A stretch of 39,204 bases of DNA from a virus. This document shows, one piece after another, positions 10,157-30,699 of this stretch (its first letter is position 1; each line of letters starts with the position of its first letter). Under the pieces are notes generated by a model that was not told where the DNA came from, made no database searches, and worked only from the letters and a program-made list of their open reading frames with translations. The position numbers and the translations under genes were made by a program. The stretch spans positions 1 to 39,204 of the IMG/VR virus record IMGVR_UViG_3300022679_000025. One strand, given 5' to 3'.

Positions 10157-10160
10157 AACC

Positions 10161-10190: not shown

Positions 10191-10192
10191 GC

Positions 10193-10405: not shown

Positions 10406-10407
10406 AA

Positions 10408-10916: not shown

Positions 10917-10921
10917 AATTA

Positions 10922-11212: not shown

Positions 11213-11213
11213 G

Positions 11214-11495: not shown

Positions 11496-11527
11496 ACGTT
11501 TGTCTCCTAAAGTTTCAGTTGTTAGAT

Positions 11528-12016
11528 TCACCCACCGAACCGATGGGTCATTAACGGGCTCATGTACAGCAGGCCCGGTGACACCTTGTAGGCATCCACC
11601 CGCTCCAGGAGGGCGAGGCCTCCCTCGAGGACAGTCTGAAACACAATCTCTGAGCAAAACCAGAGGCCCTTGCTAATGCGCGTTTCTTTTGCCCGAAAGA
11701 GAAACCCGAACGCCGCCGGATAGTCATACTTCTTGCCCTTCTGCTTTCGCATGAAATCTATCATAGCCTGACCGTCGAGCAGCTCTGCGAGCTCTGGCCG
11801 CAACGTCAAGACATAAGCCTCCTGGATCTGGTTGTATATCTCCTGGACGTCACCCGTGACCGTCACGCCGCCAGGGTTTGACTCCAGCAGCAGCGTGGTG
11901 TCGCCATGACTGACCAGGATCGCAACGTGCGACCACTTCGACCAAGTGCGGAACCGTATGATCCGAGAGACGACGCTGCGCCCACTGAAAAATAATAGAC
12001 GAACCTCAGTTTGCAT
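11528..12016 (-). CDS. Papain-like cysteine hydrolase, YiiX / permuted NlpC-P60 type
   Basis: With the start at ATG 12016 the protein has 162 residues. It shows the circularly permuted papain-like order: the histidine comes first in WSHVAILV (H30), an acidic residue follows in LLLESNPGG (E45), and the nucleophile comes last in WFCSEIVFQ (C121). YiiX and related permuted NlpC/P60 proteins have this layout and act on peptides, amides or lipids. In a phage the likely substrates are cell-wall peptide bonds, so a lysis or entry role fits. It overlaps the 54-aa membrane protein upstream by 11 bases. No signal peptide is visible. Confidence 0.7.
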   Translation of the reverse strand: MQTEVRLLFFSGRSVVSRIIRFRTWSKWSHVAILVSHGDTTLLLESNPGGVTVTGDVQEIYNQIQEAYVLTLRPELAELLDGQAMIDFMRKQKGKKYDYPAAFGFLFRAKETRISKGLWFCSEIVFQTVLEGGLALLERVDAYKVSPGLLYMSPLMTHRFGG

Positions 12017-12170
12017 TCTTTGGCCCCCGATCCAAGTAGGCCTGCACGGTGATAGCAAAGCAGCCAATACAAGCCACGCAGACTTTCGTCCAGTTGTCCG
12101 GCGCCGCGATGATCTTGTCCACGCAATAGATCGCGATCGCCAGTTTTTTGCTGATTCCATTCGTTGTCAT
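12006..12170 (-). CDS. Small membrane protein, possible holin-like
   Basis: This 54-residue gene runs from ATG 12170 to the TGA at 12006, inside the start of the hydrolase gene. A Shine-Dalgarno AAGGAAGGA lies nine bases upstream. It has a basic N-terminus (NGISKKLAIAIYCVDKII) and a hydrophobic stretch (VCVACIGCFAITVQAYL, about 30-46) followed by a short basic tail (DRGPKNAN). Size, a probable membrane helix and overlap with a hydrolase suggest a holin or a membrane partner of that enzyme. This is inference; one clear helix only, so a class III-like topology would be needed. Confidence 0.5.
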   Translation of the reverse strand: MTTNGISKKLAIAIYCVDKIIAAPDNWTKVCVACIGCFAITVQAYLDRGPKNAN

Positions 12171-12188
12171 ACTTAGATCCTTCCTTTG

Positions 12189-12395
12189 TCACTCGTCAGC
12201 CAACTGTGACACGTACCCGGCTTTCGTTCGGCCCAGTTGCCCGCAGGCCTGACAGTAAACGGTGGAGTAGTCAGAGTACGTTCTCCGATACCCATTAAAA
12301 GCCGACGTATTGTGGCGACGCTTGAGGACAACCCAGCGGCGATCCCTAACCGGCTTCTTCCGTTCCTCGCATTGGCACCCAAAAGATGTACTCAC
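12189..12395 (-). CDS. Small zinc-ribbon-like protein, GTG start
   Basis: The frame is open to 12500, but GTG at 12395 has GGAG eight bases upstream and gives a 68-residue protein that reads well throughout: CQCEERKKPV, RRWVVLKRRHNTSAF, GYRRTYSDYSTVYCQACG, then RTKAGYVSQL. The Cys pairs (C7, C9 and C48, C51) fit a small zinc ribbon, and the wide Arg/Lys content fits RNA or DNA binding. Similar short proteins with a GYRRTxSxYS core appear in phage genomes without known function. Its ribosome-binding site directly follows the U-tract of a terminator. Confidence 0.6.
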   Translation of the reverse strand: MSTSFGCQCEERKKPVRDRRWVVLKRRHNTSAFNGYRRTYSDYSTVYCQACGQLGRTKAGYVSQLADE

Positions 12396-12407
12396 AGGAT
12401 TATCTCC

Positions 12408-12443
12408 AAAAAGGACGGACGCCCCGCAACGAGCGGGACGCCC
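12408..12443 (-). terminator. Terminator after the outer-membrane protein gene
   Basis: On the minus strand an 11-bp stem with two G-U pairs (arms 12433-12443 and 12417-12427, loop of five) is followed after four bases by TTTTT (12412-12408). It terminates the outer-membrane barrel gene. The U-tract ends only 12 bases before the GTG of the next gene, and these 12 bases include the GGAG. Confidence 0.65.
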
Positions 12444-12465
12444 TACTCGAACAAAAACGTGCCGT

Positions 12466-13083
12466 CTAGTTGAACCGCTGCACGATCCCCAATTTGGCAA
12501 TGAACCCCTCGGCGAATCGCCCGTGGTTGTAAGCGTTCAGCTGCCACTGGTAGCCGCCGCCTAAGGACAAGAGAGTCGTCTCGGCACCCAGAGGGACGGT
12601 GACGTAAAGGAGCGCCGGCGCGGTCCAAATGTTGCCAGCGTTGTAGTCGTTATTCGAGGCAACCGTGCGGGTCCACTCACCTGACCGTTGAGTCGCATGT
12701 GCGTGGATGTCGTAGTCCATGTGGTTGTACGCAACCCCAATCTGGCCCAGGATACTGATACCGGCACCGACTTCAGTCCCCCAGAGAACAGAGGCCGTGA
12801 GCGGTATCGCCTTGACGTTCCCTGAAACAGCGGTCGACACATTCCCGTTCGTCGCTGGATCGGTTGCGCGAAGATTCCACAGCTGACCCCCGACACCGAA
12901 CCCGGCTTGAAACCCAGATCCGATCGGGATCCTGGCCTCCGCTTCTCCACCCCAGGCGTCGCGTGTCGGCGACTCGGTTTTCGCGTCGATGTACGTGCCA
13001 CCCACGTACAGGTCCACGGCCATGGCCGGAACAACCAGCATCAGGATCGTGGCGATAAACAGTACTGCTTTGCTCGTCTTCAT
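12466..13083 (-). CDS. Outer-membrane beta-barrel protein with signal peptide
   Basis: ATG 13083, with GAAAGGG upstream, gives a 205-residue protein. Residues 1-22 are a textbook Sec signal peptide (Lys-rich start, hydrophobic core, AMA cleavage site). The rest alternates polar and hydrophobic residues in strands joined by polar loops (DLYVGGTYIDAK; FQAGFGVGGQLWNL; GAGISILGQIGVAYNHMDYD; LLYVTVPLGAETTLLSLGGGYQWQL), ending in LGIVQRF close to the terminus as barrels do. An eight-strand Ail/OmpX or opacity-type barrel is likely. In lambdoid phages such proteins (Lom) are exported to the host surface and change adhesion or phage resistance. It has its own flanking terminators, consistent with a separately expressed gene. 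Confidence 0.75.
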   Translation of the reverse strand: MKTSKAVLFIATILMLVVPAMAVDLYVGGTYIDAKTESPTRDAWGGEAEARIPIGSGFQAGFGVGGQLWNLRATDPATNGNVSTAVSGNVKAIPLTASVLWGTEVGAGISILGQIGVAYNHMDYDIHAHATQRSGEWTRTVASNNDYNAGNIWTAPALLYVTVPLGAETTLLSLGGGYQWQLNAYNHGRFAEGFIAKLGIVQRFN

Positions 13084-13099
13084 GTGAAACCCTTTCAAG

Positions 13100-13125
13100 A
13101 AAAAGTGGAGGGGCATCCTAGCCCC
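13100..13125 (-). terminator. Short terminator before the outer-membrane protein gene
   Basis: A 5-bp GC stem (gcccc 13121-13125 / ggggc 13110-13114, loop of six) is followed on the minus strand by TCCAC and TTTTT (13104-13100). The stop codon of the upstream nuclease-like gene lies in the loop. The U-tract ends 16 bases before the barrel gene ATG. The stem is short, so partial termination is more likely than complete. Confidence 0.5.
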
Positions 13126-13627
13126 GTTTCGGTAGATCGTAACAGTAGGCCGGCGTGTAACGCAACTGGCGTTTGCCCCAGCTCGTAACGACGTCGTGCG
13201 CGACCAGGTAGAGGTCGGCAACACCGCACGGCCCGAGAAAATGGACGAACAGGTACATGTCGATCCCCTTTTGTTTTTCGTGCGCCTGATCGTTCACTGA
13301 GAGGTAATTCTTGCCCGGGGGCACCCCTTTGACATCGACCGCGGTCTGGCCCACGTAGAGGTCAGGACCGGGCACGGGACGCTCGTCGACCAGGCGCGGC
13401 GCGTCGTACTGGATCCCCTCGCGGTAGAGCGCGTACCGAGCGACCAGTTCCGCTCGCACTCCGAGGATGTTGACCTCGACGTTTTGCTTTGGCCGGCTGT
13501 ACTGCGGGTGCGCCGCCATCAGCTGCAGATTGGTGTCGTTGCGCATTTTGCCCAGGTGCTGCGCGACCTCGTCGTAGAAGCCCGGGAAGTTTACCCTGGT
13601 CGGCTTATTGAGACTTGCGAACGCCAT
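13118..13627 (-). CDS. PD-(D/E)XK nuclease-like protein
   Basis: The 169-residue protein contains the catalytic pattern of this superfamily: an early acid on a helix (RAELVARYALY, E60), then GPDLYVG (D89) and AVDVKGV (D98-x-K100), followed by YLSVN and a later strand MYLFVHFLG. These enzymes cut or resolve DNA. The N-terminal 50 residues mention no other domain. It may be a Holliday-junction or restriction-like nuclease serving recombination, or it may be a DNA-binding relative. ATG 13627 has GGAG eight bases upstream. The gene overlaps its neighbour, so it is part of the replication-recombination operon. Confidence 0.6.
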   Translation of the reverse strand: MAFASLNKPTRVNFPGFYDEVAQHLGKMRNDTNLQLMAAHPQYSRPKQNVEVNILGVRAELVARYALYREGIQYDAPRLVDERPVPGPDLYVGQTAVDVKGVPPGKNYLSVNDQAHEKQKGIDMYLFVHFLGPCGVADLYLVAHDVVTSWGKRQLRYTPAYCYDLPKRG

Positions 13628-13925
13628 CTTTCTGCTCCAGAATATAATCCGCGCAGCCCTCGATTAGAGCGTCCCAATCATGACCGCTCAGACCTTCCTT
13701 GCTCATCTGCGTCAGTGAAGCGTATAGCGTGTCCTGGCCGTACTTCTCGTGGTGCAGGATCAATTCGCCACGCCTGACGACCAGGTAGTACTTCGCCGGC
13801 AGCCTCTCCCGCGGCATCCCCTTCAGGGTCATCACAGGCCTGCTGGCCGCATCGGCAAACAGCCTCTCCGCGAGCTCTCGGGCCTCCTTGAGAACAAGCA
13901 CGATCTCAGCTCTTGTTTCCACCAT
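13605..13925 (-). CDS. Hypothetical protein
   Basis: The 106-residue protein has an N-terminal helix (IVLVLKEARELAERLFADAA), a short strand pair (KYYLVVRRGELILHHE) and a C-terminal helix (WDALIEGCADYILEQKDG). ATG 13925 has GGAG eight bases upstream and overlaps the end of the upstream gene. No motif identifies its function; an accessory role in replication or recombination is suggested by its operon. Confidence 0.55.
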   Translation of the reverse strand: MVETRAEIVLVLKEARELAERLFADAASRPVMTLKGMPRERLPAKYYLVVRRGELILHHEKYGQDTLYASLTQMSKEGLSGHDWDALIEGCADYILEQKDGVRKSQ

Positions 13926-14118
13926 GATCTATCTCCTTGTCGGGCGGCGGTGTCCATCCCAGAGAGATCAAGGCCGCCCTGACCTGAGCCTCCCGGGTAT
14001 CGAGGATTGAGCGGTGGAACGCCCGCCGGATCCCCACAGAATCGTCTGATGCGATGTCCTGGAGGATCTTGTCGTCCAGGACGTAGGTGTCAACATGGAT
14101 ATGCCCCTGCCCGGTCAT
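13906..14118 (-). CDS. Small hypothetical protein
   Basis: The 70-residue product starts at ATG 14118, overlapping the previous stop (ATGA). It contains HIHVDTYVLDD, a helix around IRRAFHRSILDTREAQVRAALISLGW and an acidic-basic tail. A winged-helix or other small fold is possible, but nothing is recognised. Tight coupling suggests it works with the replication genes on either side. Confidence 0.5.
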   Translation of the reverse strand: MTGQGHIHVDTYVLDDKILQDIASDDSVGIRRAFHRSILDTREAQVRAALISLGWTPPPDKEIDHGGNKS

Positions 14119-14831
14119 ACGCCCGCCCCCAGTTGTTTCATGACCTGTTGCTTGCGGAGCTGGCGCTGCTCAGCGCTGGGCTCCTGGTAATCTGCGCCCA
14201 GCATGTCGCCGAGGGCGACGGAGCGCTGTTCGCTCGCCTTCTTCCGGTAGACCTTCTCCAGGAACCGGCGGGCCGGAGAGTCGTCCCCGGCGGCGATTAT
14301 CGCCTCTGCCTCTCTGAGGGCCTGTGCGCCCCGTAGAGCCGTTTGGTCAAAAGGGGGTGCTGCGGGAGCCCCCTGGTCGAGATCGCCGCTCTCCGTCAAT
14401 ACCAGGCCCCATGTGATGCCTTCTACCTCGCTCAGCTGAGCGCATTTGTCGGTCGCGTACTGCATGGCCCGCTGCGGATCCGGCACGGCTTTGGCGTTCG
14501 GGGCCCAGAAAATCAGGCGCTGACCGACCTTGAAGGGCCGGAAGCGGTCCTCGAGGCATACGCACTTGAAAACGACCTGCGCCTCGGCGGGCGTATTGAC
14601 CCCTCCCTCGGCGGGCATTTCCTTGATCGCCTTGAAGACGCCCTTCATGTCGGGCTGCCGGTAGGCTTTGCCCTGGTCGCAATAGGCGGCCTCGACCGCA
14701 GCCGTCACAGCCTCGTACTCCCGGTGCTGCAGCCGGCGGGCCCAGATGTCGAGTTCATCGTCCGAGGGCGTCCAGAGGGGCCACAGGCTCCTCAGCTGGC
14801 CTTTGATCCTATCCCAGTCAGTGTCAAGCAT
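14115..14831 (-). CDS. Possible helicase-loader-like replication protein
   Basis: ATG 14831 gives 238 residues. The N-terminal part (IKGQLRSLWPLWTPSDDELDIWARRLQHREYEAV and AAYCDQGKAYRQPDMKGVFKAIKE) matches the overall shape of small helical domains such as SPP1 G39P and other loaders: a Trp-rich helical bundle that counts on a pro-helicase partner. The rest is charged helix with no Walker motif, so it is not an AAA+ loader. It follows the replisome organizer with an 8-base overlap, as loaders usually do. The helicase itself is not in the window and may be the host's. The assignment is an inference from pattern and synteny. Confidence 0.5.
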   Translation of the reverse strand: MLDTDWDRIKGQLRSLWPLWTPSDDELDIWARRLQHREYEAVTAAVEAAYCDQGKAYRQPDMKGVFKAIKEMPAEGGVNTPAEAQVVFKCVCLEDRFRPFKVGQRLIFWAPNAKAVPDPQRAMQYATDKCAQLSEVEGITWGLVLTESGDLDQGAPAAPPFDQTALRGAQALREAEAIIAAGDDSPARRFLEKVYRKKASEQRSVALGDMLGADYQEPSAEQRQLRKQQVMKQLGAGV

Positions 14832-15672
14832 TGTTCGACCTCTTTCTGCGGGCTTCGGCCCTGGCTTTGAGCCGGGCATCCTGCGCCGCGATTTCTTTTT
14901 CCCGCTGTTGTTTCTTCAGGTCCACCAGGCTCAGGGTGTTGTCGTACTTGCCCTCCAGGACCTTGACGTAGTTTTCGTCGTTGGTCACCAACCAGCCGAA
15001 GTCGGCCTTCCACCCACGATCGTTGATCCCGGTCAGGAAGTCGGACTCGTTCATCCGGTGGATGATCTCTCTCCAGCCCTCGGCGAACTCCGGCTCCCTG
15101 AACCTAGCCGCCAGTTTGGCTGCTCGGGACTTGCTTATCGTGCGACACGCCGGCAGTCGGTCCATGGAGTTCCAGTACTCCTGGATCGCCTGGTGTCGCG
15201 TCCCAGCAGTCGGAGCGGATTCCTTACGGCACTCTCCTCTTAGGGATACTTTAGTATCCCTTGGTTTAACTGGTTTCCTTTGTGGTCGCGGGGTGGTCGC
15301 GGGATGGTCGGATTGGTGGTCGCCGCGTGGTCGCATGTCTTGATAAGTATCGTAATTGACTACCGTTAAGGTGGTCGTATTCCCGGTCCCCACATGGTCG
15401 ATCATTTCGTCACCCCTCAATAACGCGAAGAAACGGCGGGTTCTCGACCGATCCCACTCAGGGCCAAAAAGGGCGGCCCAGGAAGCCATAGAACGGAGGG
15501 ATTGTCCCCGCTTACACAGAAACAACTGGCCGCCAATCAGGACCTTTTGATCCTCATAGTTGACGTTCAGCAGGATCGTGAGCCAGGCCCGCAAATACTC
15601 GGGATCCTTCCAGATCCAGTGGTTCAAGATTTTGCGCTCTAACACTATAAAACCGCCGGTCATCACTTCCAT
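14824..15672 (-). CDS. Phage replisome organizer-like protein
   Basis: ATG 15672 gives 282 residues. The N-terminal domain (VLERKILNHWIWKDPEYLRAW, LLNVNYEDQKVLIG, GQSLRSMASWAALFGP, TLTVVNYDTYQDM) is the winged-helix layout of phage replisome organizers/DnaD-like initiators. It is followed by a basic disordered linker (residues 125-160) and a C-terminal helical domain with WREIIHRMNESDFLTG and GWKADFGWLVTNDENYVKVLEGKY, the typical DnaD C-terminal pattern. It binds the phage origin and recruits the helicase-loading machinery. The start overlaps the end of the YbcO-like gene by ten bases. Confidence 0.8.
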   Translation of the reverse strand: MEVMTGGFIVLERKILNHWIWKDPEYLRAWLTILLNVNYEDQKVLIGGQLFLCKRGQSLRSMASWAALFGPEWDRSRTRRFFALLRGDEMIDHVGTGNTTTLTVVNYDTYQDMRPRGDHQSDHPATTPRPQRKPVKPRDTKVSLRGECRKESAPTAGTRHQAIQEYWNSMDRLPACRTISKSRAAKLAARFREPEFAEGWREIIHRMNESDFLTGINDRGWKADFGWLVTNDENYVKVLEGKYDNTLSLVDLKKQQREKEIAAQDARLKARAEARRKRSNNA

Positions 15673-16040
15673 GAGAGGACCCCCTGAGTGAAGGCCTCCT
15701 GTAAAACCGCACGGAAGGCTATGAGGCTTTTGGGGTCGAAGTCGATGATTCCCTCGGCCATGGCCAGTTGCAGCGTCAGGCGCAATGCTATGACCTGCAG
15801 GAACTCGAATTCCGACGGGTGGGGCCGGACGGAGTTTTCCTCGTCGTTGTGACACTCTGCATGGCAGTTCGAGCAGACCAGGATCCCGAACCAGTCGGGG
15901 CATTTGAGCCCGGTGCCGTCGACCTTGATGTGGTGCAAAACGGTTGTCTCCCGGTCCTGGTTGCAGCCGGCGAGCATGAGGGTGCAGGCGTGGCCTTTGG
16001 CCCATGACCTGTACTTGTCGTTGCGGTCTGTTTTTGGCAT
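15663..16040 (-). CDS. YbcO/Rap-like recombination nuclease (DUF1364 type)
   Basis: With ATG 16040 (AAGGATCC upstream) the protein has 125 residues. It shows the family pattern: a basic start, GHACTLMLAGCNQDRETTVLHHIK (C19, C26, H36, H37), then GLKCPDWFGILVCSNCHAECH (C56, C59, H60), an HNH-type metal site. The C-terminal helix (LQVIALRLTLQLAMAEGII) is also usual. These enzymes are Rap/YbcO nucleases that cut recombination intermediates in lambdoid-type phages. Its place beside SSB and Erf fits. The upstream open frame to 16235 has no ribosome-binding site. Confidence 0.8.
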   Translation of the reverse strand: MPKTDRNDKYRSWAKGHACTLMLAGCNQDRETTVLHHIKVDGTGLKCPDWFGILVCSNCHAECHNDEENSVRPHPSEFEFLQVIALRLTLQLAMAEGIIDFDPKSLIAFRAVLQEAFTQGVLSWK

Positions 16041-16065
16041 GCGCGGATCCTTCCTGAAATATGCC

Positions 16066-16104
16066 CCCCCAGGGGGCCCACGGCGGGCTGTTGGTCCCTG
16101 GGGG
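16066..16104 (-). other. Long GC stem before the YbcO-like gene
   Basis: A 9-bp inverted repeat (cccccaggg 16066-16074 / ccctggggg 16096-16104, loop of 21) lies in the 82-base gap between the HNH gene and the YbcO-like gene. It is not followed by a clear U-tract (ATATTTC only). It may be a weak terminator or a border of the HNH insertion. Confidence 0.4.
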
Positions 16105-16122
16105 AGCCGGAGATAGGCGACA

Positions 16123-16593
16123 TTAGGCCGCTTGTTTATCTTCAATCCATTTAGTCTGCCCATGACAAGATGAACAAAGGAAACGGATGTCAAGCGGCTT
16201 TTCGTAATCATCGTGATGGGCTTCAACGGGCCCAATTAACCCACAGCAAGAGCACCAGTCAGGACGAACAATCTCCCCACGTTGAATCGCTCGCCGCACG
16301 GCCCCCCCTGCGCGGGTTTTGTGCTGATATTTCTTTCTGTATTTCCGGTTGTATTCAACTGCCTTGCCGGGATGGTCCTTTCGCCATTGCCTCATGCGGG
16401 AAACGTGCTTCTTGTCCCTGCCGCCTCGCCTGCGTTCACGATCGCGCTGTCGGACCTCCGGTCGCTGGTTATTCTTACGCGCACGCTCGCGGCAACAAAC
16501 CTTGCAGGCCCCTAGACGCCCATCAGCCATTCCTGGGTGCTTGTAGTATTCGCCCAATGGCTTCTCTTGGTGGCAATGAATACAAATCTTCAT
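16123..16593 (-). CDS. HNH endonuclease-like protein, possible mobile insertion
   Basis: The 156-residue protein opens with a zinc-finger-like CIHCHQEKPLGEYY (C4, C7) and CKVCC (C30, C33), followed by a very basic middle (RQRDRERRRGGRDKK). It ends in a free-standing HNH motif: CSCCGL, then VEAHHDDYEKPLDI (H126, H127, D128) and FLCSSCHG (C140, C143, H144). This is the pattern of phage HNH proteins that behave as homing-type endonucleases. The gene is visibly lower in GC than the SSB and replisome genes around it and sits as a self-contained unit with an 18-base gap on one side and an 82-base gap on the other, suggesting later acquisition. AGGAGGTCC precedes ATG 16593. Confidence 0.75.
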   Translation of the reverse strand: MKICIHCHQEKPLGEYYKHPGMADGRLGACKVCCRERARKNNQRPEVRQRDRERRRGGRDKKHVSRMRQWRKDHPGKAVEYNRKYRKKYQHKTRAGGAVRRAIQRGEIVRPDWCSCCGLIGPVEAHHDDYEKPLDIRFLCSSCHGQTKWIEDKQAA

Positions 16594-16611
16594 TCTGGAC
16601 CTCCTTTGTCC

Positions 16612-17256
16612 TCAAAAGGGAATTTCATCACAAGGCACATGGGACTCCGGCTGATGTGGAGCCACGTTGGCCTGCTGCGGGCCGTCATCCTGCGGGAAAG
16701 CATCGCGCAGCGCGTTGTTCGTTGCGCTGGCTCCCATGCCACCCATGCTACCCATCACCGCGTCCACGCGGGCCCGCTCCTCCGGCGACATCTGGGCATA
16801 CTTCTGCTCGAACGTCATCTGTTGCGGCGCCGGCGCAGGAGCGGACTGGGTCGGGGCCGCTGCCTGCTGCTGGGGTGCCGGCTGCCGATACTGATTCTGC
16901 GGGGGGCGGTCAGGGTTCGGCGGCGCCGAGTGCAGGAACTGGCACAGGAAGACCCGCACCTTTAGGCGAGATCGCTTCTGGCCAGTGGCTTGGTCGTTCC
17001 ACTGGTCCAGCTCCAGCTCGCCCTCGACGAAGACGGGCTTGCCCTTGGAGCAATATTTGTTGATGTTCTCCGCGGTTTTGCCGAACGCGGCGCACTCGGC
17101 GAAGCAGACCTTCTCGCGTTTAGACCCGTCGGTCGCCGTCCAGGTCTTGTTGGTGGCCACGGCAAAATTGACCACCGGGGTTTGGTCGGGCAAGTAGCTC
17201 AGCTGCGGATCCCGCGTGAGGTTACCCATCAAAAGTACTTTATTGTACGATGCCAT
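16612..17256 (-). CDS. ssb: Single-stranded DNA-binding protein
   Basis: The 214-residue protein has the OB-fold pattern of bacterial-type SSB: YNKVLLMGNLTRDPQLSYLP, VVNFAVATNKTW, KVCFAECAAFGKTAENINKYCSKG, VFVEGELELDQW and SRLKVRVFLCQFL, residues 1-110. A Gln/Pro/Ala-rich linker and the conserved acidic tip CDEIPF at the C-terminus follow; the tip recruits partner proteins. It coats single-stranded DNA during replication and annealing. The start ATG 17256 has GAGGAG nine bases upstream. Neighbouring Erf and YqaJ genes complete a recombination module. Confidence 0.95.
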   Translation of the reverse strand: MASYNKVLLMGNLTRDPQLSYLPDQTPVVNFAVATNKTWTATDGSKREKVCFAECAAFGKTAENINKYCSKGKPVFVEGELELDQWNDQATGQKRSRLKVRVFLCQFLHSAPPNPDRPPQNQYRQPAPQQQAAAPTQSAPAPAPQQMTFEQKYAQMSPEERARVDAVMGSMGGMGASATNNALRDAFPQDDGPQQANVAPHQPESHVPCDEIPF

Positions 17257-20913: not shown

Positions 20914-22833
20914 CTACTGGCTGGACTTACGCTCTTTCGCCCTCCGCTCCTTCTCTTTTTTTACGGCAGCATACAGCTCGCGGCCCGATTTCGTGGGAAA
21001 ACCAACCCGACCTAACTTGCGATTCTGTTCAGTGTCCTTGTAGACGGTCTTGCGGTACATAGCCTGCAGCTCGGCGTCCGAGATTGTCGAGATGTGCTCC
21101 CCGTAGGTCTGCATGCCGATCCCCAGAAGCGCCACGGCGTTCAGGGCAACCCCCTTGGCGACCCCTTGCTCCTCGGCGACATCAAGCAGGTCAGAGAGTG
21201 CCAGCGGGGCAAACTGAGACATGAGGTATTTGCTGGCGACCCAGGCGTCCAGGTTGCCTTCCTCGTCGCGCATGATCTCGTCACCGACAACGTTTTTCTG
21301 CTCCCAGAAAACATCCACGGCGAACGAGGCCGCCGGCGAAAACTTGGTCCGCAGGAAACGGGCTGCCGTCTGGTACGGACCGTCTCGCCCATACTTCCTG
21401 TCGGGCCCGCGCAGGTTCGTGACCGCCCCGGTGGAGCTGCTCTTGGTTTGACCGACGAACGTCCGCGTGATAATCGTGGCCGTCTGCGCCATGCCGGACA
21501 GAAGGTCCAGGCGCGTATTGCCGATGCGCAGTTTGCCGAAGTCACTGCTGCGCGTATCCCACTCCCAGTCAGCGCCGGCCAGGACACCCAGAGAGATGAT
21601 CGTCGACAAGCCCAGCCCGTACCGGACATATTCTGCTGCGACCTGCTTGCGGATCCCAGAACCCTTGCGCAGCGGGTTCATGGTCAATAGCTGAAACCGG
21701 GACGTCGTGAACCGGGCCGCGAAGAAGACGGTGTTTAGCGCCTCGGCAGCTCCGGCAAACTTACCGAGGTCGCCGCGACCCGTGGCAATGTTCACGTAGT
21801 TTGCAATCGCCTGGGCCTGTTCCTTGGTCACGCCGGCGGGCCCGCCCAGGGCATCGACCATCGAGTCGAACGAGTCAGCCCGCAGTTTGTTCAAGACCGT
21901 GATGTACGCCCGCTCGCTACCGGCCAGGCCGGGCAGGAACTTCTCGAGCGTCGGCAGCATCCGGGAGGAGTAGGCTTCCTCCCGCTTGTTCATGCTGGCT
22001 CCCTCGAGGGGCGCCAGGTACAATTTGGCCTTGGCGTACAGCGGCGCATTTCGCCGGTTGAGAATCTTGTCGTTGATCTTGTAGGCCTTCTCGTCCGAGC
22101 TGAAAGCAGCCAACATGGCGGGGACCGCTCTGGCGCCGCGCACCGGGTGAGCGATCGCAATGAAGCCACCCTGCCGCAGGAGGCCTGAAAGGTCATAGGA
22201 GGTTTTGATGGCTCGCACTACGCCGGCGACATCTTCAGCCGTCGACCAGAGCCCCCTGGGTTCCAGGGCCCGCTGCTCCTGCCGAATCTCTTTCGCCAGG
22301 CGGTTGCGCTGATACTCCAGCCGCTCCAGCTCTGCATCTCCCGTGATATGATCCTCGCGAGTCTTGGGCGCAATCTCCCCAGTGCGGATCCGTTCCTGCA
22401 GCCGGTTGATGTTCTTTTCGAGCCGCTCCCTTACTGCCGGCTTTGAGATGTGCAGATGCTTCTTGAGCTGGTTGCGGATGGCCCGCAGTTCCGCGATCGC
22501 GTCCGGCGGCGCTGCTCCCTTTTTGCGATTCTTGCGGGGCAGTTTGCCGCTCTTGAGGTAGGCCTCCAGCTCGGTGATCTGCTTGCGCAGCGCGGCGTCC
22601 TGGCCCATCTCTTTGCGGACGGCCTGCAGAACGTCCAGGACTCCCTGCGTAGTTTTCTGGGTACTGCTGTGTGCCTCGATGACCAGGTCGACCAGGCCCT
22701 CGCGACTGACGCCAGGGATCAGGACCTGCATGCGTGTCACGACGTCGTCGAGATTCTTGACCCCGTCCTCGCTGGCCAGGTTCATTGCCAGCTGGTACAT
22801 CTTCTGCGCGTATGGATCACAATTTATCGCCAT
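20914..22833 (-). CDS. Large virion-associated protein with LPD-type C-terminal region
   Basis: The 639-residue protein is mostly helical. Residues 1-180 are charged helix with coiled-coil segments (ERLEKNINRLQERIRTGE). Residues 215-260 are more hydrophobic (IAIAHPVRGARAVPAMLAAF). Later come FAGAAEALNTVFFAARFTTSRFQLLTMNP and GLSTIISLGVLAGADW, then YQTAARFLRTKFSPAASFAVDVFW and a basic Lys/Arg tail. The C-terminal R..K.SP..S stretch recalls the large polyvalent protein-associated domain found in phage ejection-type proteins (LPD38-like); this is by eye. The start overlaps the 1934-aa gene stop by one base (TGATG), so the two proteins are coupled and may assemble together inside the virion. Confidence 0.6.
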   Translation of the reverse strand: MAINCDPYAQKMYQLAMNLASEDGVKNLDDVVTRMQVLIPGVSREGLVDLVIEAHSSTQKTTQGVLDVLQAVRKEMGQDAALRKQITELEAYLKSGKLPRKNRKKGAAPPDAIAELRAIRNQLKKHLHISKPAVRERLEKNINRLQERIRTGEIAPKTREDHITGDAELERLEYQRNRLAKEIRQEQRALEPRGLWSTAEDVAGVVRAIKTSYDLSGLLRQGGFIAIAHPVRGARAVPAMLAAFSSDEKAYKINDKILNRRNAPLYAKAKLYLAPLEGASMNKREEAYSSRMLPTLEKFLPGLAGSERAYITVLNKLRADSFDSMVDALGGPAGVTKEQAQAIANYVNIATGRGDLGKFAGAAEALNTVFFAARFTTSRFQLLTMNPLRKGSGIRKQVAAEYVRYGLGLSTIISLGVLAGADWEWDTRSSDFGKLRIGNTRLDLLSGMAQTATIITRTFVGQTKSSSTGAVTNLRGPDRKYGRDGPYQTAARFLRTKFSPAASFAVDVFWEQKNVVGDEIMRDEEGNLDAWVASKYLMSQFAPLALSDLLDVAEEQGVAKGVALNAVALLGIGMQTYGEHISTISDAELQAMYRKTVYKDTEQNRKLGRVGFPTKSGRELYAAVKKEKERRAKERKSSQ

Positions 22834-25800
22834 CAGCAGCCGCCCTCATTCATTGCCGTTATTTCCGCGACCAGGGCGTTACGCTCCTTGGCCTTTGCGG
22901 CTTTGTCCATTTTGGTGTAGCGCTTCATGGACCCGCGCATCACAGCTCGCTCAGCTCGTGCCTGCGTCGTCGACTGCCGCAGCGCTTCGTATTCGCGCTC
23001 CATCTTCTCGAATTTGTCGGTCAGCTCCTTGAACTTGAGCCGCTCATCCTCGGTCAGGGCCTCGCCCTTTTTGGCCTTGGCCAGGTTCAACGTCGTTGCC
23101 AGGTCGTACTGCTCGGTGACCATCACCTTTTGGCTGTTCAGGGCTCGTCCGCGCTCGGTGCCGGAAACCCGCAGCGCGACGGAAATCTCCTCGATCTCCG
23201 TCTCCGCTTCCAGGAGTTCCTTGGACGTCATGAGCAGCTCGCCAGTGTCGGTCTGTCCCTCCGCGGCAGCCACCATGGAATTGTACTCGTTGATCAGCTG
23301 GGCCTTGCGCATCACCAGGGCCGCGCTCTCGACGCTCGTAAGACCCCTGGGGTCGTCGTAAATCTTGCGAGCGATCTTGATCGCGTTGGCAACCTTGCCG
23401 GTTCGCATCGCCTCCTCCATGTCCTGCTCCCAGCTGCGCCGGCCTGGGCTCGAGGCCGACGTCAAGCCGACCTGCTTCAGGAAGTGGTCGAGGTTCGCCG
23501 CCAGGGCTGATGCCTCGAACTTCATGCGCAGCCGGGCCTTCTCTTCCGGCTCTACGCGGTTCGGGAAATACTCTTCGATCTGGTAGTCCTCGCCCTTGGC
23601 GGGCAGCGCCGCCTGGAATACCGGCTCCTGCTTGGTGCCGCCGATCCTGACGACGGTCTTGTACCGCTGCCGCAGCATGTCCTCCAGCTGCACCGGCGAG
23701 ATGTCACTCTTGCGGGGGCTCTTGGGATAGTTCACGATCGCCCGCCCGCCGGGCGAGGTGCTGGCCGCGATCTGGTTGAGCGTGCTGCCCATCATCGCCA
23801 GGTTGCTCTGGACGTTCAATACATTGGAGGCGATCACCAGATCGTACTGCCGGTACAGGGCGTCGGGATCGTGTACGCCTTTGGTCCTGTTCGCGGGGAA
23901 GTCGTAGTTAGTGACCTTGCCGCCGGCCTTCTTGAGCAGCTCGGCGTGGGGGATGGTGCCGGCCTTGTTGACCTTGCCGGCTCCGTAGTTCAGGACCGAT
24001 TCACCTTTCTGGACCCGCTCGAGGGCCGCCTGGATCACCCGGGGGACGCGACCGCCGACGCCACCAGGTCGGGAGGTCTTGGTCGCGGTGTCCTGCTCGG
24101 CCTGGGAGGGGATGTACTCCTCGACCTGCAGGTCCTCGCCCATGATGTCTGTAGACTCTCTCTCGAAATCGTCCATACGCTTGTTGACTGTTTCGAGCAG
24201 AACCTTGTTCATCGCTGTCGGCTTGTTGATGCGCCAGTCACCGCCGCCGTGGAATTCCCGCTCAGCAAACCGCTCGCGGATCAGCTGCAGCATGGCCGGG
24301 TTGGCCTTGGTGACGATCGCGTCATCACCGCTCTTGATCCATTTGTCCAGGTAGCGCTGCGCAGCTCGCCAGTTGATCTTGCTGGAGTCCAGGACCCGGG
24401 AGTCTTCGGGGTTGCGGGCGATGTCGTTGACGACCTTCATATAGCCGGCTTTGTTTTTCCACTCCTTGAAGCGCGGATCGATGCCCAGCCGGTCAACCAG
24501 TTTCAGGTACGTGCGCCGGTCAGACTTATGATGCTCCCGCGTGATGTCAAACTTGTAGTCGGACGGCTTCAGGGATCCCTCGAGGACCTTGTCCCGCTGC
24601 GCGTCGGTGAGTTTTTCCCACGGGCCCTTGACGTCGTCGCCCAGGTGCTTCTTGATGTTCTTGGCGCTCTTGATCTCTTTCTTTTGTGGGCTGGTCCGAT
24701 TGTCCAGGGCGAACTTCCGCAGCTCCGGCATGGTGACACCGAGCACCTTGGCGATCTCCGGCACGTTGGCGTTGTCCCAGTGCTCGTGCTGCTGCTTGGT
24801 GAAATCGGTCGCCTTGTTGGCCAGTGTCACGCCGGCTTTGACGCTGCCGCGGTGGAACGGAATTACCATATCGATCTGCGGATCCTTCAGGGCGTAAAGC
24901 ACCTGCTCGTCGTTATACGCTACCAGCATAGTCCCAACGTCGCGGCTGTTACGCCGACGATACTTCAGGGCCTCGGCCTTTGGGAACCCGTTCATGTCGT
25001 TCCAGAGCGGCTTGCCGTCAGTGTCAAATACCATGTCCCCGTTCTCGTCCTGGGCGTACTCCACTGACAGATTGAATTTCATGCCGGTCTTGCCGAATAT
25101 CTCGACGAACTCCGGCACCCGGGTAAAGACATGCGCCTTGCTGTTGATCGCCTGGGCCGCGCCGACGAACTGCGCGGTGTCGATCACGTACCAGGGCCGG
25201 AAGTCGGACTGGCTGTTCATCCGCATACCGCCCATCTTGTTGGCCTTGTCGATCGCGGCGCGACCGGAGGCATTGGCGTACTTGGCAAACAGCTGCATCT
25301 GGAAGGGGGCGTACCCCTTGGGTTTGTTACTCTTGGCTGCGGCCTGGACAATGCCGGCCACGGTCTTGGCCATGGCGGCCTGGTCGGGGCTCGTGGGCGT
25401 TGTCCGGCCCTTGGAGATGTCCAGCATTACCTTGCCGTCCACCAGCCCCATCTCGTTGAAGTTGTTGGCCACATACGTGGCGGCCTGGCCGTCGTTACTC
25501 CACTTGCCCCAGATCGAACCCTTGAGCTGCGCCTTGGTCGGCGTTTTGCCGGGCTCGATCTTGCCGGCGCGATACTGTTCGGCCAGCCAGTTCATCCGGC
25601 GGGCCGTCTCGTGGAATGTCCACTCGTACAGGTCGCGCCCGGTCTGCCCGTAGCAATACCAGCAGGAGGGGACCTCGCCGGACTCGTTCATCATGGCGCC
25701 AACCAGGAACCGCTCAGAGGGCGAGAGGATCCTGCCGACCTCGTCCTCGTAGGCCTTGATATTGGCCACGTAGGCGTCCTGCTGCGGACACAGAGTCGTC

Positions 25801-28637
25801 AGGTCAAATGTGAACCCGTACAGGTCGTCGTTCGATCGCAGGGGGTTCACCGGGCTGCCGGTCTTGGCGTCGACCTCGGCCATGGGCAGCCGGGAAAAGT
25901 CGTCCTGGAATATCTCGCGGGTTTTCCGCAGGCCTCGGACAAAGTCGTCAATCTCGGCCTCGGTGAAGTTGTCCTTGACGAATTTGCTACTGCGGAACTT
26001 GGCCTCCCAGGCGTCCATCTCGACGACCTCGTAGTCGACGATCACCTCTGGGGCGTTGATGTTTCCGTGGGAGTCGTCACCAGTAACCTTCACTTTGTCC
26101 AGGGCCACGGCTTGCGCAGGAGTTGGGCCGCTCGACTTTCCCGAGGTCGTCACGCCTGCCGGAGCAGGTTGGATCGGACTGGCGTTCCTGGCCGAGCGGC
26201 CCGTTTGTGTACTGACTGTACCATCGGCACCCTCGGGAGTCAACTGTAAATTTTCTGCATTTTTCTGCGGGGTCCCAACGGCGGCCTGCAGGTACAGTTC
26301 CTCGATCTTGGGGTCGATGGTCGCGCCGCGCAATTTGCGGATCCTGCCGATTAAGGCGCGGAGGCGCTGGCGGGCCTTGCCGAACAGTTTGCGGATGCTG
26401 CCGGCGTCCTCGTGGAATTTGTTGCTGTAGAACCAGTCGCGGCCCTCGTTGGCGAACAGCTCGCGGACGTCGGCCTCTTTGGCGATCCCTCGCTCCTTGG
26501 CGTACATCTGGAACAGTTTCTGCTCTACGGAACTGAGACGGTTGAACCCTCGATGGAACCACTCATGGACGACGGTGTCAGCGTCCGCACCTCGATATAA
26601 CTTGATGACGGTTTCAAGCACTCCTGTACTTGGATCGAGTTCGCTACGAGTAGAGCCCTTGGCTTGCCATTGTCGACGTATACCATCGTCTGTGAGAGTT
26701 GGCAGGCCTCGGGCTTCGGCTTCTTCGTTGGCGAGGACATGGAGTTCTCCTGAGACTTCTAGGGCGGTGTCTTGGTCGACGTCGTACTGTTGAACCAGGA
26801 CCGTTCCGACCGCGTGGGCCCCTGGGTCAATGGCCCCTGCTTTCAGGGCCGTATCCAGTGTGCGCGTCGTCTTGGGGCTGGTTACAGGCTTTAAAGCCTC
26901 GCTACTTGGCGGTTGGGCCGGTTCACTTGGCGGTTGGGCCGGTTTACTTGGCGGTACGGCGGGCTCCTGTACGGCCTCCTGAGCCGTTTGGGGGGTCGAC
27001 CCCTCCGGTAGGACCTCCGCGCCGGGTTTGGCTACTGTGTCCTCCAGGGGGACCGTTCCCGGGGCGTCTACGACCTCTTCCACGGGCTGGCCCACGCCTT
27101 GGTCGGGCTTGATCAGCTCCACCTGGCCGCCCACGGTCAGGATATTGCCCTCCAGAACGGCGTTCAGCTCGCGGCCAGCCTCGTCTGCCCGGCGCACTGA
27201 CTCCTCGTACACGGCCTCGGCGGCCACTGGGTCGCGGAATGTGTAGGTCGTGGAGCCATCCTCGTTGGTCTGGGTCGTCATGACCGGGGCCTGGCCTTCC
27301 ATCTGGCTGAAGGCCTGGCGCATAGACTCGTACTTGTCGGTCAGAATCTTCTGGGTGGACTCGGCCTGCAGGTTGCCGGCCAGAGCCTTGGCACCGCCTA
27401 CGCCGGCCAGGAAGGGGCTCACAGCAGCGCCACCGACAAACTCCATCGGCAGGGTGTCCAGGGTCCATTCGGCCCCGTGGCCCCAGTGAGCGGCCCCCTG
27501 CTTGGTCAGAGACTGCAGGACCTCCTCGACGCCATTCCACATGGATTCCTTGAACTGATCCTTCGTAATCTCGGCGCCGGCCTCGAATACCTCGATCGCG
27601 CTGCGGCGGGTAATGCCCTTGGCCAGCAGCCGGCCAGCATTTTGCCCGGCCTTCTTACCGATTTTCAGGGCGCCGCCGACCTGGGCGACCTCGATCAGGG
27701 CCGAGATGGGCCCGGCAACCATCTGCTCGATCCTGGCGATTTTCTCGGCCTCCACCTCGGAGTAACCCATCTCCAGCAGCTCCGCACGGGACGACTGGTA
27801 GACCTCATTACCCTCGATGGCGTTGGATACCACAAAGGCGCCGGCGGGCCCCAGGAGGGCAGCGGACGCGCCTGAGAGGCTCATCATGGGGGCCGTCTCA
27901 AAGATGGCCTGTGTCAGGTATTTAAGGGGGCCAAAACTGCCCCCTTTTCCGGCGGCGATCTCGGGGCGCTGTGCGTCCTCAAAGAGCAGCGTCGCCAGGT
28001 GATCCATGTCGATCGCGGTTTCCTTGTTGGCCTGCTCGATCTCGGTCTGGCTCATGGCCGCGGCGCCGCCGCCCGGCTGGTAGTAGAACGGGTTGGGCCC
28101 GTCGTCAGGTCCCGACTTGAGTAAGGTGGCCACGGTATCGGCCAGGCCAGAAAATGCCTTCAGGCCGCCGCGCTCGAGGGCCTTGGCGGCTTCCTTGATG
28201 TGCCCCTCGTAGGATCCTTCATCGAACGGGTGGACCGGCGCGCCGGCGGGATCCACCACGGCCACAGACTTGGGGCCCAGGGACTCGACGTCAGGGTTGA
28301 ACGGCTGGTCACCCTCGAGGGTGCCGGGTGTCTGGATCGGCTTGGTCCTGGGCTCTGCGACGGCCGCCGCGGCCTCTTCTGTAAATCTCCCCTGGAATCC
28401 GCCCTGGAATCCTCCCTGGAATCCTACCTTTTTGGATGGCACTAAGTCACTGAACCGGCCCGTTTTACGTGCGGACGATCCGGGGGGATCCGGCCTGGAA
28501 TCCTCCCTGGAATCCGACCTTTTTTCTCCCCCCTTTTCTCCCCTGGAGGGTTTGGTAGGGTTTGGTAGGGTTTGTCCCTGTTTGGTAGGGTTTCGTCCTG
28601 ACGTTTTGCCTGGGATCAGATCGTCAAAATATGCCAT
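22833..28637 (-). CDS. Giant multidomain polyvalent protein (metallopeptidase, CxxC domain, methyltransferase-like)
   Basis: This 1934-residue protein spans 5.8 kb. Residues 1-90 are low complexity with internal repeats. Residues about 225-280 are hydrophobic Ala/Gly-rich (SLSGASAALLGPAGAFVVSN). Around 680-760 lies a zincin motif in VVHEWFHRGF (H691, E692, H695), followed by a helical region. A domain at about 880-1250 contains LTTLCPQQD (C950) and SCWYCYG (C992, C995), then SDFRPWYVIDTAQF and TGMKFNLS. A Rossmann methyltransferase-like domain spans about 1545-1680 (VLNYGAGK, NYDFP, YDLVIASNVLNVQ). The last 150 residues are coiled coil. Multidomain phage proteins of this kind, called polyvalent proteins, are thought to be ejected with the DNA and to neutralise host defences. 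Domain calls are by motif only. Confidence 0.75.
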   Translation of the reverse strand: MAYFDDLIPGKTSGRNPTKQGQTLPNPTKPSRGEKGGEKRSDSREDSRPDPPGSSARKTGRFSDLVPSKKVGFQGGFQGGFQGRFTEEAAAAVAEPRTKPIQTPGTLEGDQPFNPDVESLGPKSVAVVDPAGAPVHPFDEGSYEGHIKEAAKALERGGLKAFSGLADTVATLLKSGPDDGPNPFYYQPGGGAAAMSQTEIEQANKETAIDMDHLATLLFEDAQRPEIAAGKGGSFGPLKYLTQAIFETAPMMSLSGASAALLGPAGAFVVSNAIEGNEVYQSSRAELLEMGYSEVEAEKIARIEQMVAGPISALIEVAQVGGALKIGKKAGQNAGRLLAKGITRRSAIEVFEAGAEITKDQFKESMWNGVEEVLQSLTKQGAAHWGHGAEWTLDTLPMEFVGGAAVSPFLAGVGGAKALAGNLQAESTQKILTDKYESMRQAFSQMEGQAPVMTTQTNEDGSTTYTFRDPVAAEAVYEESVRRADEAGRELNAVLEGNILTVGGQVELIKPDQGVGQPVEEVVDAPGTVPLEDTVAKPGAEVLPEGSTPQTAQEAVQEPAVPPSKPAQPPSEPAQPPSSEALKPVTSPKTTRTLDTALKAGAIDPGAHAVGTVLVQQYDVDQDTALEVSGELHVLANEEAEARGLPTLTDDGIRRQWQAKGSTRSELDPSTGVLETVIKLYRGADADTVVHEWFHRGFNRLSSVEQKLFQMYAKERGIAKEADVRELFANEGRDWFYSNKFHEDAGSIRKLFGKARQRLRALIGRIRKLRGATIDPKIEELYLQAAVGTPQKNAENLQLTPEGADGTVSTQTGRSARNASPIQPAPAGVTTSGKSSGPTPAQAVALDKVKVTGDDSHGNINAPEVIVDYEVVEMDAWEAKFRSSKFVKDNFTEAEIDDFVRGLRKTREIFQDDFSRLPMAEVDAKTGSPVNPLRSNDDLYGFTFDLTTLCPQQDAYVANIKAYEDEVGRILSPSERFLVGAMMNESGEVPSCWYCYGQTGRDLYEWTFHETARRMNWLAEQYRAGKIEPGKTPTKAQLKGSIWGKWSNDGQAATYVANNFNEMGLVDGKVMLDISKGRTTPTSPDQAAMAKTVAGIVQAAAKSNKPKGYAPFQMQLFAKYANASGRAAIDKANKMGGMRMNSQSDFRPWYVIDTAQFVGAAQAINSKAHVFTRVPEFVEIFGKTGMKFNLSVEYAQDENGDMVFDTDGKPLWNDMNGFPKAEALKYRRRNSRDVGTMLVAYNDEQVLYALKDPQIDMVIPFHRGSVKAGVTLANKATDFTKQQHEHWDNANVPEIAKVLGVTMPELRKFALDNRTSPQKKEIKSAKNIKKHLGDDVKGPWEKLTDAQRDKVLEGSLKPSDYKFDITREHHKSDRRTYLKLVDRLGIDPRFKEWKNKAGYMKVVNDIARNPEDSRVLDSSKINWRAAQRYLDKWIKSGDDAIVTKANPAMLQLIRERFAEREFHGGGDWRINKPTAMNKVLLETVNKRMDDFERESTDIMGEDLQVEEYIPSQAEQDTATKTSRPGGVGGRVPRVIQAALERVQKGESVLNYGAGKVNKAGTIPHAELLKKAGGKVTNYDFPANRTKGVHDPDALYRQYDLVIASNVLNVQSNLAMMGSTLNQIAASTSPGGRAIVNYPKSPRKSDISPVQLEDMLRQRYKTVVRIGGTKQEPVFQAALPAKGEDYQIEEYFPNRVEPEEKARLRMKFEASALAANLDHFLKQVGLTSASSPGRRSWEQDMEEAMRTGKVANAIKIARKIYDDPRGLTSVESAALVMRKAQLINEYNSMVAAAEGQTDTGELLMTSKELLEAETEIEEISVALRVSGTERGRALNSQKVMVTEQYDLATTLNLAKAKKGEALTEDERLKFKELTDKFEKMEREYEALRQSTTQARAERAVMRGSMKRYTKMDKAAKAKERNALVAEITAMNEGGC
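28390..28516 (-). repeat. Tandem GGATTCCAGGGA repeats read in two frames
   Basis: Three near-identical 12-base units (cctggaatcc.. on the plus strand) lie at about 28390-28425 and two at about 28494-28516, both followed by acctttttt-like sequence. The two blocks are 91 bases apart, which is not a multiple of three. In the first block the unit encodes GFQG repeats, in the second block the same bases encode DSRE. The DNA, not the peptide, is what is repeated. Confidence 0.75.
28549..28600 (-). repeat. 10-base tandem repeat (AAACCCTACC type)
   Basis: Near the N-terminus of the giant protein the plus strand has ggtttggtag repeated with interruptions. The unit AAACCCTACC has a period of 10, so successive copies fall in different frames, giving NPTK and TLPN in turn. 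Such a repeat can expand or contract by slippage and so vary the N-terminal tail. Confidence 0.6.
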
Positions 28638-28640
28638 CGG

Positions 28641-29792
28641 TTATCCATCCAGAAGTGCTGCGGCGGCTTCTCTCTCGCTCGGGGTGCGGATAGCCGACAA
28701 AATCTCTCGGATCTCGCTAGCCCTGTCTGGCCCGTAAGATGAGATCATCTGCAGGATCGCTTTGTCGCGCCCCAGCTGGCCGGAGTCCACCTGGGACATG
28801 AACCCGTTGAGATCGCGGCGGTATTGCAGGTACATCTGCGCAGTCTGCTGCAGGCGTGGATCAAACTCGTTACTGATAACCTCGTCCAATCGGACGCGCA
28901 GATCGTCGTAGTCCGCGCCCTGGGCCAGTGCGTTGCCGGCCTCCTGCAGGACACTCTCAAAGCGCGGATCATTCTCGTTCGGCGGTTTGGATGCATCGAA
29001 CGTCTGGGTCGGACTGTAGCCGGCCTCCTTGAGCTGCTCGCGGGCAATGATCTGCTGGTCCTGCGGGACGTAGAACGTAACCTTCTCACCGTCCGGTCCA
29101 TAGGCCTCCAGGGGGACCTTCCGCTGCGTCTCTCGATTGTCTGTCGGCAGCAGGCGGTCCATGGTCGACAGTTCGGCCTGGCTCATAGCCTGGCCGCGCA
29201 TCGATCGGTCGGCGCTCATCTTGTCGACCTGGCGCTCCCGCTTGTACATGGCCGGCGAGATGTGCTGGTCGCGCTCGGCTCGTTTCATCAGCGCCGAGGA
29301 GGTAAACCAATCGATCTCTTCCTGGCTCGCGCCGGCGGCGCCCATCTTCATGGCCTCGGCATCGAGTGATCTGCGGAAGTTGATGTTCCCAACCATGGCA
29401 GCCAGTTTCGGGATCCGGCCCATTGCCCCGTTGTAGTTGCTCTGCTTGTACGCCTGCATCTGACGCTCCATCGGAGACGTCGGAGGCGCGAGCTGCCCGC
29501 CGTTGGACATGCCGGATCCGTCAGTCGGGGCCATGTCGGCGCCGACCTGCTGCGGCGCCGCCTGCGGAGGCGTCCATTCTGGCCGGTTCATGGCCATCTC
29601 GGGCGGCGGCGCCGGTCCGTAGACCGGAGGTGGCGGTGCCGGTCCGTAGACAGGGGGCTCCTCGTCAAGAGTGGCCGTCCTGGTTGGGCCATCCGACCTG
29701 AAAGTTTCCGGCTCTGTCGTAAGGGCCCCCTGCTGACGCAGTTTGTCCAAAAGCGTCTTGTACCGGGCGCTCCGTTTGCTTTCTCGTGACAT
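28641..29792 (-). CDS. Putative internal virion/tail protein with PPVYGPAPPP repeats
   Basis: ATG 29792 with AGGGGAAA upstream gives 383 residues. Residues 30-90 are Pro-rich with two tandem PPVYGPAPPP units followed by a Gln/Pro linker. Then come helical segments, SLDAEAMKMGAAGASQEEIDWFTSSALM, a mixed region with VTFYVPQDQQIIAREQLKEAGY, and a long C-terminal helical domain (FESVLQEAGNALAQGADYDDLRVRLDEV). No enzymatic motif is seen. Position between another helical protein and the giant protein suggests an internal or ejection protein. Confidence 0.5.
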   Translation of the reverse strand: MSRESKRSARYKTLLDKLRQQGALTTEPETFRSDGPTRTATLDEEPPVYGPAPPPPVYGPAPPPEMAMNRPEWTPPQAAPQQVGADMAPTDGSGMSNGGQLAPPTSPMERQMQAYKQSNYNGAMGRIPKLAAMVGNINFRRSLDAEAMKMGAAGASQEEIDWFTSSALMKRAERDQHISPAMYKRERQVDKMSADRSMRGQAMSQAELSTMDRLLPTDNRETQRKVPLEAYGPDGEKVTFYVPQDQQIIAREQLKEAGYSPTQTFDASKPPNENDPRFESVLQEAGNALAQGADYDDLRVRLDEVISNEFDPRLQQTAQMYLQYRRDLNGFMSQVDSGQLGRDKAILQMISSYGPDRASEIREILSAIRTPSEREAAAALLDG

Positions 29793-29802
29793 CAAGTTTC
29801 CC

Positions 29803-30699
29803 CTAACTGGCCCCCGTCGAACCGCCCTTGCCGAAGGTTCCGAAGTAGCCACTGATTGTGGACTGTACCGTTTTGCCACCGTTCAGGACATCCTGGACGC
29901 GATCGCTGAAGCCCTTCTGGTACATAGTGCCGCCGGGGTTGGTCCCGAGCAGGCTCATCAGCCAGTTGCCCTTGGCCTCCAGGTTTGCCATCTGTTGATT
30001 GTAGGACTCGTCCAGAACCTGCTGCTTCATGCCGCGCAGTTTTGCGCCGGCGCGATCGCCGACCTCGATGCGCTGGAGTTTCTCGTTGTTCTCCATGGTG
30101 GCCAGCTGGTCAAGAAAAGTCACTGCCGCCCACTGGCGCCCGCGCTCGGCCTCCAGGAAAGGCGTGGCCGCTGCAACCATCTTGGCCTGCTCGTCCGCGT
30201 TGCGTCGATCGATTGCCTCAGCCCCTTTGCGTGAGGATAGGACGTCGTTGCCCTGGGTGCGCAGCCCGCGGCCCGCGTTGCGCAGGTTCTGGTCGCCGGC
30301 CTGCTGGACCAGGTCCATGATCGCCTTGAACTCCGGCAGCTGCGTCGGATCGGAGCCCTCGGCAAATTCGCGCGCCTTTTCGCCGGCCAGCTGCCGGTTC
30401 TGGTTGGGCTCGCCCTGAGCGAACTGTTTCATGTAATTCGTCATCAGCTGCTCAAAGGGATCGAAGTCCGCGACCCCTCGACGCGGCGCCTGCGGGTTCA
30501 TCGCCATGTTGTACAGCTCGCCGCGGGCTGCGGAAACTTCCGGCGGCTCGATCAGTTCGTTACCGCCAAAGAAGTTGCCCTCGAACAGATTAAACCCTTT
30601 GCCAAACGCGCCGCCATCCTCGGCTTTTTTAGCAAAAGCCTTTGTAATCGGGTTGTTGTGCCCGCTCTGATCTTCTGCGTCGCCAAGAAAATTAGGCAT
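29803..30699 (-). CDS. Putative internal virion/ejection protein
   Basis: The 298-residue protein is helical and rich in Gln/Ala/Lys. It contains AMNPQAPRRGVADFDPFEQLMTNYMKQFAQGEPNQNRQ, then IMDLVQQAGDQNLRNAGRGLRTQGNDVLSSRKGAEAID, and an end with NWLMSLLGTNPGGTMYQKGF and ISGYFGTFGKGG. The middle helix-turn-helix layout with RGLRTQG and a Gly-rich tail resembles phage pilot or ejection proteins in other podoviruses, by impression only. AGGAGGCTATC precedes ATG 30699. Confidence 0.5.
   Translation of the reverse strand: MPNFLGDAEDQSGHNNPITKAFAKKAEDGGAFGKGFNLFEGNFFGGNELIEPPEVSAARGELYNMAMNPQAPRRGVADFDPFEQLMTNYMKQFAQGEPNQNRQLAGEKAREFAEGSDPTQLPEFKAIMDLVQQAGDQNLRNAGRGLRTQGNDVLSSRKGAEAIDRRNADEQAKMVAAATPFLEAERGRQWAAVTFLDQLATMENNEKLQRIEVGDRAGAKLRGMKQQVLDESYNQQMANLEAKGNWLMSLLGTNPGGTMYQKGFSDRVQDVLNGGKTVQSTISGYFGTFGKGGSTGAS

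Follow-up and report, generated by a model that had tools for sequence, protein, structure and literature searches.

A conserved, unnamed three-cysteine domain recurs in giant polyvalent phage proteins

The window that we analyzed (all 39,204 nucleotides of IMG/VR record IMGVR_UViG_3300022679_000025) belongs to a tailed phage. In this 39.2-kb virus record, PHROGs recognized a portal protein (phrog_156, E = 8e-42) as well as the large terminase. At about 24% identity, the portal has distant counterparts in Pseudomonas phage KPP25 and Acidovorax phage AP1, and the portal and terminase genes share a strand with the gene for a 1934-aa protein. On this minus strand, the tail-region genes are followed by ORFs encoding 298 (29803–30699), 412 (28641–29879, directly upstream of the giant gene), 1934 (22833–28637) and then 639 amino acids (20914–22833). 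The 639-aa protein, which is helical and has no assigned function, matched no family and showed no relation to the proteins of the relatives described below. The stop codon of the 1934-aa ORF overlaps the start of the 639-aa ORF as TGATG, which makes the translational coupling that had been predicted for the two genes plausible. Elsewhere in the window, a plus-strand frame (8559–9356) containing LLHEVAHLMHHKLTG...WG, a SprT-like zinc motif, sits in a divergently oriented stretch (about 7300–10150) of small ORFs.

The 1934-aa protein (P0001; minus strand, as are all of its features) is encoded by an intact ORF with an ATG start, and it carries HEWFH at residue 691, LCP at 949 (placing a cysteine at 950), CWYC at 992 and VLNYGAGK at 1548, as originally predicted. 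Near its N terminus lie two copies of a short motif, FDDLIPGKT (residues 4–12; 28602–28628) and FSDLVPSKK (residues 62–70; 28428–28454), and beyond them a hydrophobic, Ala/Gly-rich helical region (residues ~240–420; 27378–27920), which is possibly membrane-inserting, as in ejection proteins. The same chain then joins a zincin-like metallopeptidase domain (residues ~650–790; 26268–26690), a domain with three conserved cysteines (residues ~856–1465; 24243–26072) and a Rossmann methyltransferase-like domain (residues 1517–1680; 23598–24089), and it ends in a charged, coiled-coil-like region (residues ~1700–1934; 22836–23540). Only four cysteines occur in the entire protein, at positions 950, 992, 995 and 1934. 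The first of these (Cys1; 25788–25790) falls at the C-terminal end of predicted strand 1 of the three-Cys domain, the next two (Cys2-x-x-Cys3; 25653–25664) precede predicted helix 1, and the conserved segment R-M-N-S-Q-S-D-F-R-P-W-Y (residues 1139–1150; 25188–25223) spans strand 2 and its end.

Six further giant proteins, each distinct and each encoded on an IMG/VR virus contig (uncultured phages), contain the three-Cys domain. A degenerate DNA pattern for the Cys motif retrieved one of these relatives and a fixed-spacing pattern two more; an alignment-based scan added four records, representing three further distinct proteins (the ORFs of L010 and L011 are identical in length and in Cys positions), and a last scan returned the same set again. 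The spacing C-x41-C-x2-C is exact in seven of seven distinct proteins; it was imposed in the patterns that fetched three of the six relatives and was not imposed for L010, L013 and L014. Its retention in all six relatives shows that the motif is not a chance occurrence. Two contigs matched by the first pattern, L004 and L005, were discarded as chance matches in which we saw no relative of the domain. In an all-against-all BLAST comparison, residues ~856–1465 were the sole part of the window protein with significant similarity to the other six (E = 3e-43 to 2e-93), and the seven-protein alignment revealed further invariant blocks, DxTxCPxQD, CYGQxxR and RxNSQxDxRxW. Cysteines are nearly absent elsewhere in several of the giants (totals of three in 2477 amino acids, three in 1260, four in 2069 and four in 1934), and the retention of these three in otherwise almost Cys-free proteins is as expected if they are needed.

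The original prediction could match this set of domains to no named system, and none of the libraries that we searched names the three-Cys domain: the region had no family match in Pfam, NCBIfam, PHROGs, PADLOC or PDB sequences. Two motif scans of ~85,000 genomes, in which exact motif matches were the only ones detectable, found zero relatives; within the reach of exact-match scans, the domain therefore seems to be viral and uncommon. A whole-protein tblastn search against phages produced no match, and scanning viral contigs for motifs of single sequences, with peptides picked automatically, was likewise unsuccessful. GP88 (PF17338), considered as a related family, gave no profile match, and we put matches to UvrA_DNA-bind (E = 0.003), myoglobin and ribosomal proteins down to chance. 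Residues ~856–1465 constitute a real, conserved and as yet unnamed family of ~600-residue domains in polyvalent phage proteins, which probably acts as a metal- or cluster-binding enzyme.

The only relative that we saw in a cultured phage is the hypothetical protein WPA89565.1 (231 aa) from Moorella phage MTATph1 (L002, 5803–6498). It aligns with the three-Cys domain over strands 2–4 (BLAST, 2e-8; hhalign, 94.9%). When the insert of the giants was removed, the alignment also covered the Cys motif (HMM, 3e-16 among 5000 shuffles); removing the insert was our choice and favours a match at the Cys motif, whereas the match over strands 2–4 is independent of it. MAFFT placed the Moorella Cys motif incorrectly when given the uncut sequences; the insert-free alignment was consistent. 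The Moorella protein shares a homologous core with the giants (DLTTICP, CPYCY and GGLRLFSFGDYKPW) but differs in standing alone outside any polyvalent protein, in having extra C-terminal cysteines, and in the spacing of its motif, C-x8-C-x2-C, which reads DLTTICP-x7-C-x2-CY. This compact form suggests that, in the giants, a loop of the cluster type is interrupted by an insertion. The extra cysteines (CGATGTCKDCSLKCG) possibly form a second metal site. The gene for WPA89565.1 adjoins integrase, tRNA-Phe and DNA polymerase genes. The Moorella phage has, in addition, a gene (OR602862.1, 105387–105896; L017) for a canonical radical SAM protein (PF04055, E = 2e-9) of RlmN/Cfr-like appearance.

The three cysteines had originally been described as close to radical SAM spacing without the canonical CxxxCxxC, a description that can now be sharpened to a ~600-residue family with an invariant stretch of 41 residues between the first two cysteines, against eight in the short Moorella phage homologue, although membership in the superfamily is unproven. 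We generated AlphaFold2 models of the domains from the window protein and from L013, both at low confidence (pLDDT 59–60, pTM 0.43–0.52). Both gave the same order of elements, in which strand 1 is followed by Cys1, the insert, Cys2-x2-Cys3, helix 1 and five more helix-separated strands, making a predicted (beta/alpha)6 arrangement that was clearer in one model and had strands 1 and 2 short or unresolved in the other. Foldseek comparison with the PDB returned mainly TIM barrels (E about 0.06 to 1), with no match at E <= 0.001 and no radical SAM enzyme among the matches listed, and comparison with BFVD returned one uncharacterised phage protein (E = 2e-11). The domain had no match to the Pfam Radical_SAM profile PF04055, hhalign comparisons with two radical SAM proteins were not significant, and we could recognize no GGE motif. 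In QueE, the radical SAM cluster loop is stretched to CX14CX2C within one extended loop, and motif variants are known to evade bioinformatic detection (PMC4389238). What the three-Cys domain has in common with the radical SAM superfamily is the placement of three cysteines in a loop after predicted strand 1, a CxxC beside aromatic residues, and the (beta/alpha)6 order predicted at low confidence; it differs from known members, QueE included, in its C-x41-C-x2-C spacing, which we did not find described as a radical SAM variant, and in lacking a PF04055, GGE or structural match. The 41-residue stretch is compatible with an insertion into a cluster loop of the radical SAM type, without proving membership. 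We consider a radical-SAM-like nature for the domain slightly favoured, and we do not file it as a superfamily member.

The assignments of the two flanking domains are plausible, at moderate confidence. For the proposed zincin, the HExxH motif (H691, E692 and H695) is followed by an Asn-Glu whose glutamate, E731, is the putative third ligand and aligns with the HExxH segment of sister proteins; these features fit the original proposal, but the region matched no library profile. The methyltransferase-like segment, with GAGK, YD and NVLNV in order, did match Methyltransf_23 in Pfam (E = 4e-5, 23.9 bits), but below the cut-off of 27. L009 has a segment with the same order of methyltransferase motifs on the other side of its Cys domain; a BLAST comparison of the two segments was not significant (0.04). 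Zincins are the commonest domain of polyvalent proteins and may self-process the protein in which they lie (PMC5512222).

Domains curated as polyvalent, or found in such proteins, recur in the relatives. Profile searches identified LPD22 in L013 and L014 (E = 7e-11 and 1e-14) and ART-PolyVal in L010 (E = 4e-13), together with GGDEF in L006 and L013 and GNAT in L012, and HExxH motifs are present in L006, L009, L010 and L013. In L006 (ORF 5960–16624), FTHNHPGGSIFSVDDI lies between the HExxH region and the three-Cys region and is similar to a metalloprotease motif of the JAB/RadC type; the segment had no Pfam match. The window protein itself contains no catalogued polyvalent domain (LPD, ART-PolyVal and the like) by profile, these being a usual and not an obligatory mark of the class. 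Like the polyvalent proteins of phages (Iyer et al., 2017; PMC5512222), it is a giant, multidomain protein with a putative HExxH zincin and a putative methyltransferase-like domain in a virion gene context, and its relatives carry LPD22, ART-PolyVal, GGDEF and GNAT; it departs from them in its three-Cys domain, which matches no Pfam family, LPDs included. The main text of that survey does not contain the words 'radical' or 'cysteine' (PMC5512222).

Gene order points the same way. In both L006 and L013, a tail protein (phrog_376) is followed by an internal virion protein of the T7 gp14 type (phrog_418, E = 1e-26 to 2e-30), a ~620-aa protein and then the giant, which places phrog_418 two genes upstream of it; the ORFs of L014 follow a similar size order, and in L010 a portal/MuF-type protein is encoded immediately upstream. 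The arrangement in L006 and L013 matches the gp14–gp15–gp16 order of an ejection operon described earlier (PMC8954989), and the 298-, 412- and 1934-aa ORFs of the window reproduce the size order of that cluster, the first two occupying gp14- and gp15-like slots by position only. Neither neighbour shows detectable homology to known ejection proteins or to the proteins in the corresponding slots of the relatives, so here the ejection slot is read from order and size. As with ejection proteins of the T7 gp16 type (PMC8954989), the giant gene is the largest ORF after two smaller ones, lies downstream of tail genes, and encodes a hydrophobic helical region; it differs in having no demonstrated sequence similarity to them and no detected transglycosylase, and in carrying several enzyme-like domains. 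By its position, the 639-aa ORF could represent the C-terminal portion of the ejection protein, split off as a separate gene. The original placement of the 1934-aa protein in the polyvalent, virion-delivered class is well supported by the curated domains of its sisters and by gene position; we regard that placement as very likely, and we infer packaging.

Short duplicated motifs near the N terminus are not confined to the window protein (FDDLIPGK/FSDLVPSK). They are of the FDVTK type in L009 (three copies), FLDGS in L006 (two copies), YLGLFE/YMGLFE in L013, YDRLFEP/YDKAFAD in L014 and W.E..HPR..DGKFA.KG in L010 (two copies). Shuffling gave them modest support (0–8 of 300 in the window, L006, L009 and L014), and for L013 a Pro/Ala-rich stretch scored better than the YLGLFE/YMGLFE pair. 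It is possible that such motifs serve as packaging or docking peptides.

Several other explanations have to be weighed against a radical-SAM-like enzyme delivered from the virion. The three cysteines might instead hold a structural or catalytic zinc in a Zn-binding or Zn-dependent (beta/alpha) barrel enzyme, possibly together with a conserved histidine (in AHVYT or IPYH). The occurrence of a conserved His alongside the cysteines would suit such a site, as would the negative PF04055 search and fold matches that resemble TIM barrels with no radical SAM enzyme among them. However, a cysteine directly after strand 1 and, ahead of helix 1, a CxxC with an aromatic residue resemble a radical SAM cluster loop, as does the short Moorella form, and the His of AHVYT is missing from the Moorella homologue, though the strand-6 His is kept. 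We judge the zinc enzyme rather unlikely.

Less probable still are two further readings. In the product of an ejection-protein slot (PMC8954989), the three-Cys domain could be a non-catalytic, structural or tape-like part of the ejection machinery, its cysteines forming redox or disulfide switches, but the motifs are enzyme-like, with invariant D, R, N, S, Q and W residues, and the stand-alone 231-aa MTATph1 homologue has integrase, tRNA and DNA polymerase genes as its neighbours, not structural genes; we think this improbable. It seems equally improbable that the giant is a large intracellular enzyme, made early or late and never packaged. The absence of a clear family for its neighbours in the window would allow this, yet the gene follows tail-region genes, two relatives encode the internal virion protein two genes upstream, and the sisters carry polyvalent domains.

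We marginally favour, on balance, an ejection protein of a short-tailed phage in a gp16-like slot, combining a radical-SAM-like [4Fe-4S] module with a zincin and a methyltransferase-like domain. Such a protein would be packaged in the capsid as the largest ejection protein and threaded into the host with the DNA, and its hydrophobic N-terminal part may cross the membrane. The zincin may then release the domains or cleave a host protein. In the three-Cys (beta/alpha)6 domain, C950, C992 and C995 would most likely hold a [4Fe-4S] cluster, either gained from the host Isc/Suf system or kept in the capsid, and the domain would carry out a SAM-dependent modification of a host or phage macromolecule early in infection, presumably to the benefit of the phage, while the methyltransferase-like domain would act in parallel on a second target. 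The fullest version of this proposal, a radical-SAM-type Fe-S enzyme with a conserved 41-residue Cys1–Cys2 insertion that the virion carries as a polyvalent ejection module for use at the onset of infection, we advance tentatively, as somewhat short of an even bet. Literature searches found no description of a virion-injected radical SAM enzyme, and we know of none.

With an alignment of seven sequences and a compact homologue from the Moorella phage, the hypothesis can be tested. If the cluster and the SAM chemistry are confirmed, it becomes a question how a cofactor sensitive to oxygen comes to be packaged or acquired, and which macromolecule is altered as infection begins. With this family, the arsenal that phages may inject gains a strongly conserved enzyme-like domain not described before, and the radical SAM superfamily may gain a branch that current profiles miss.
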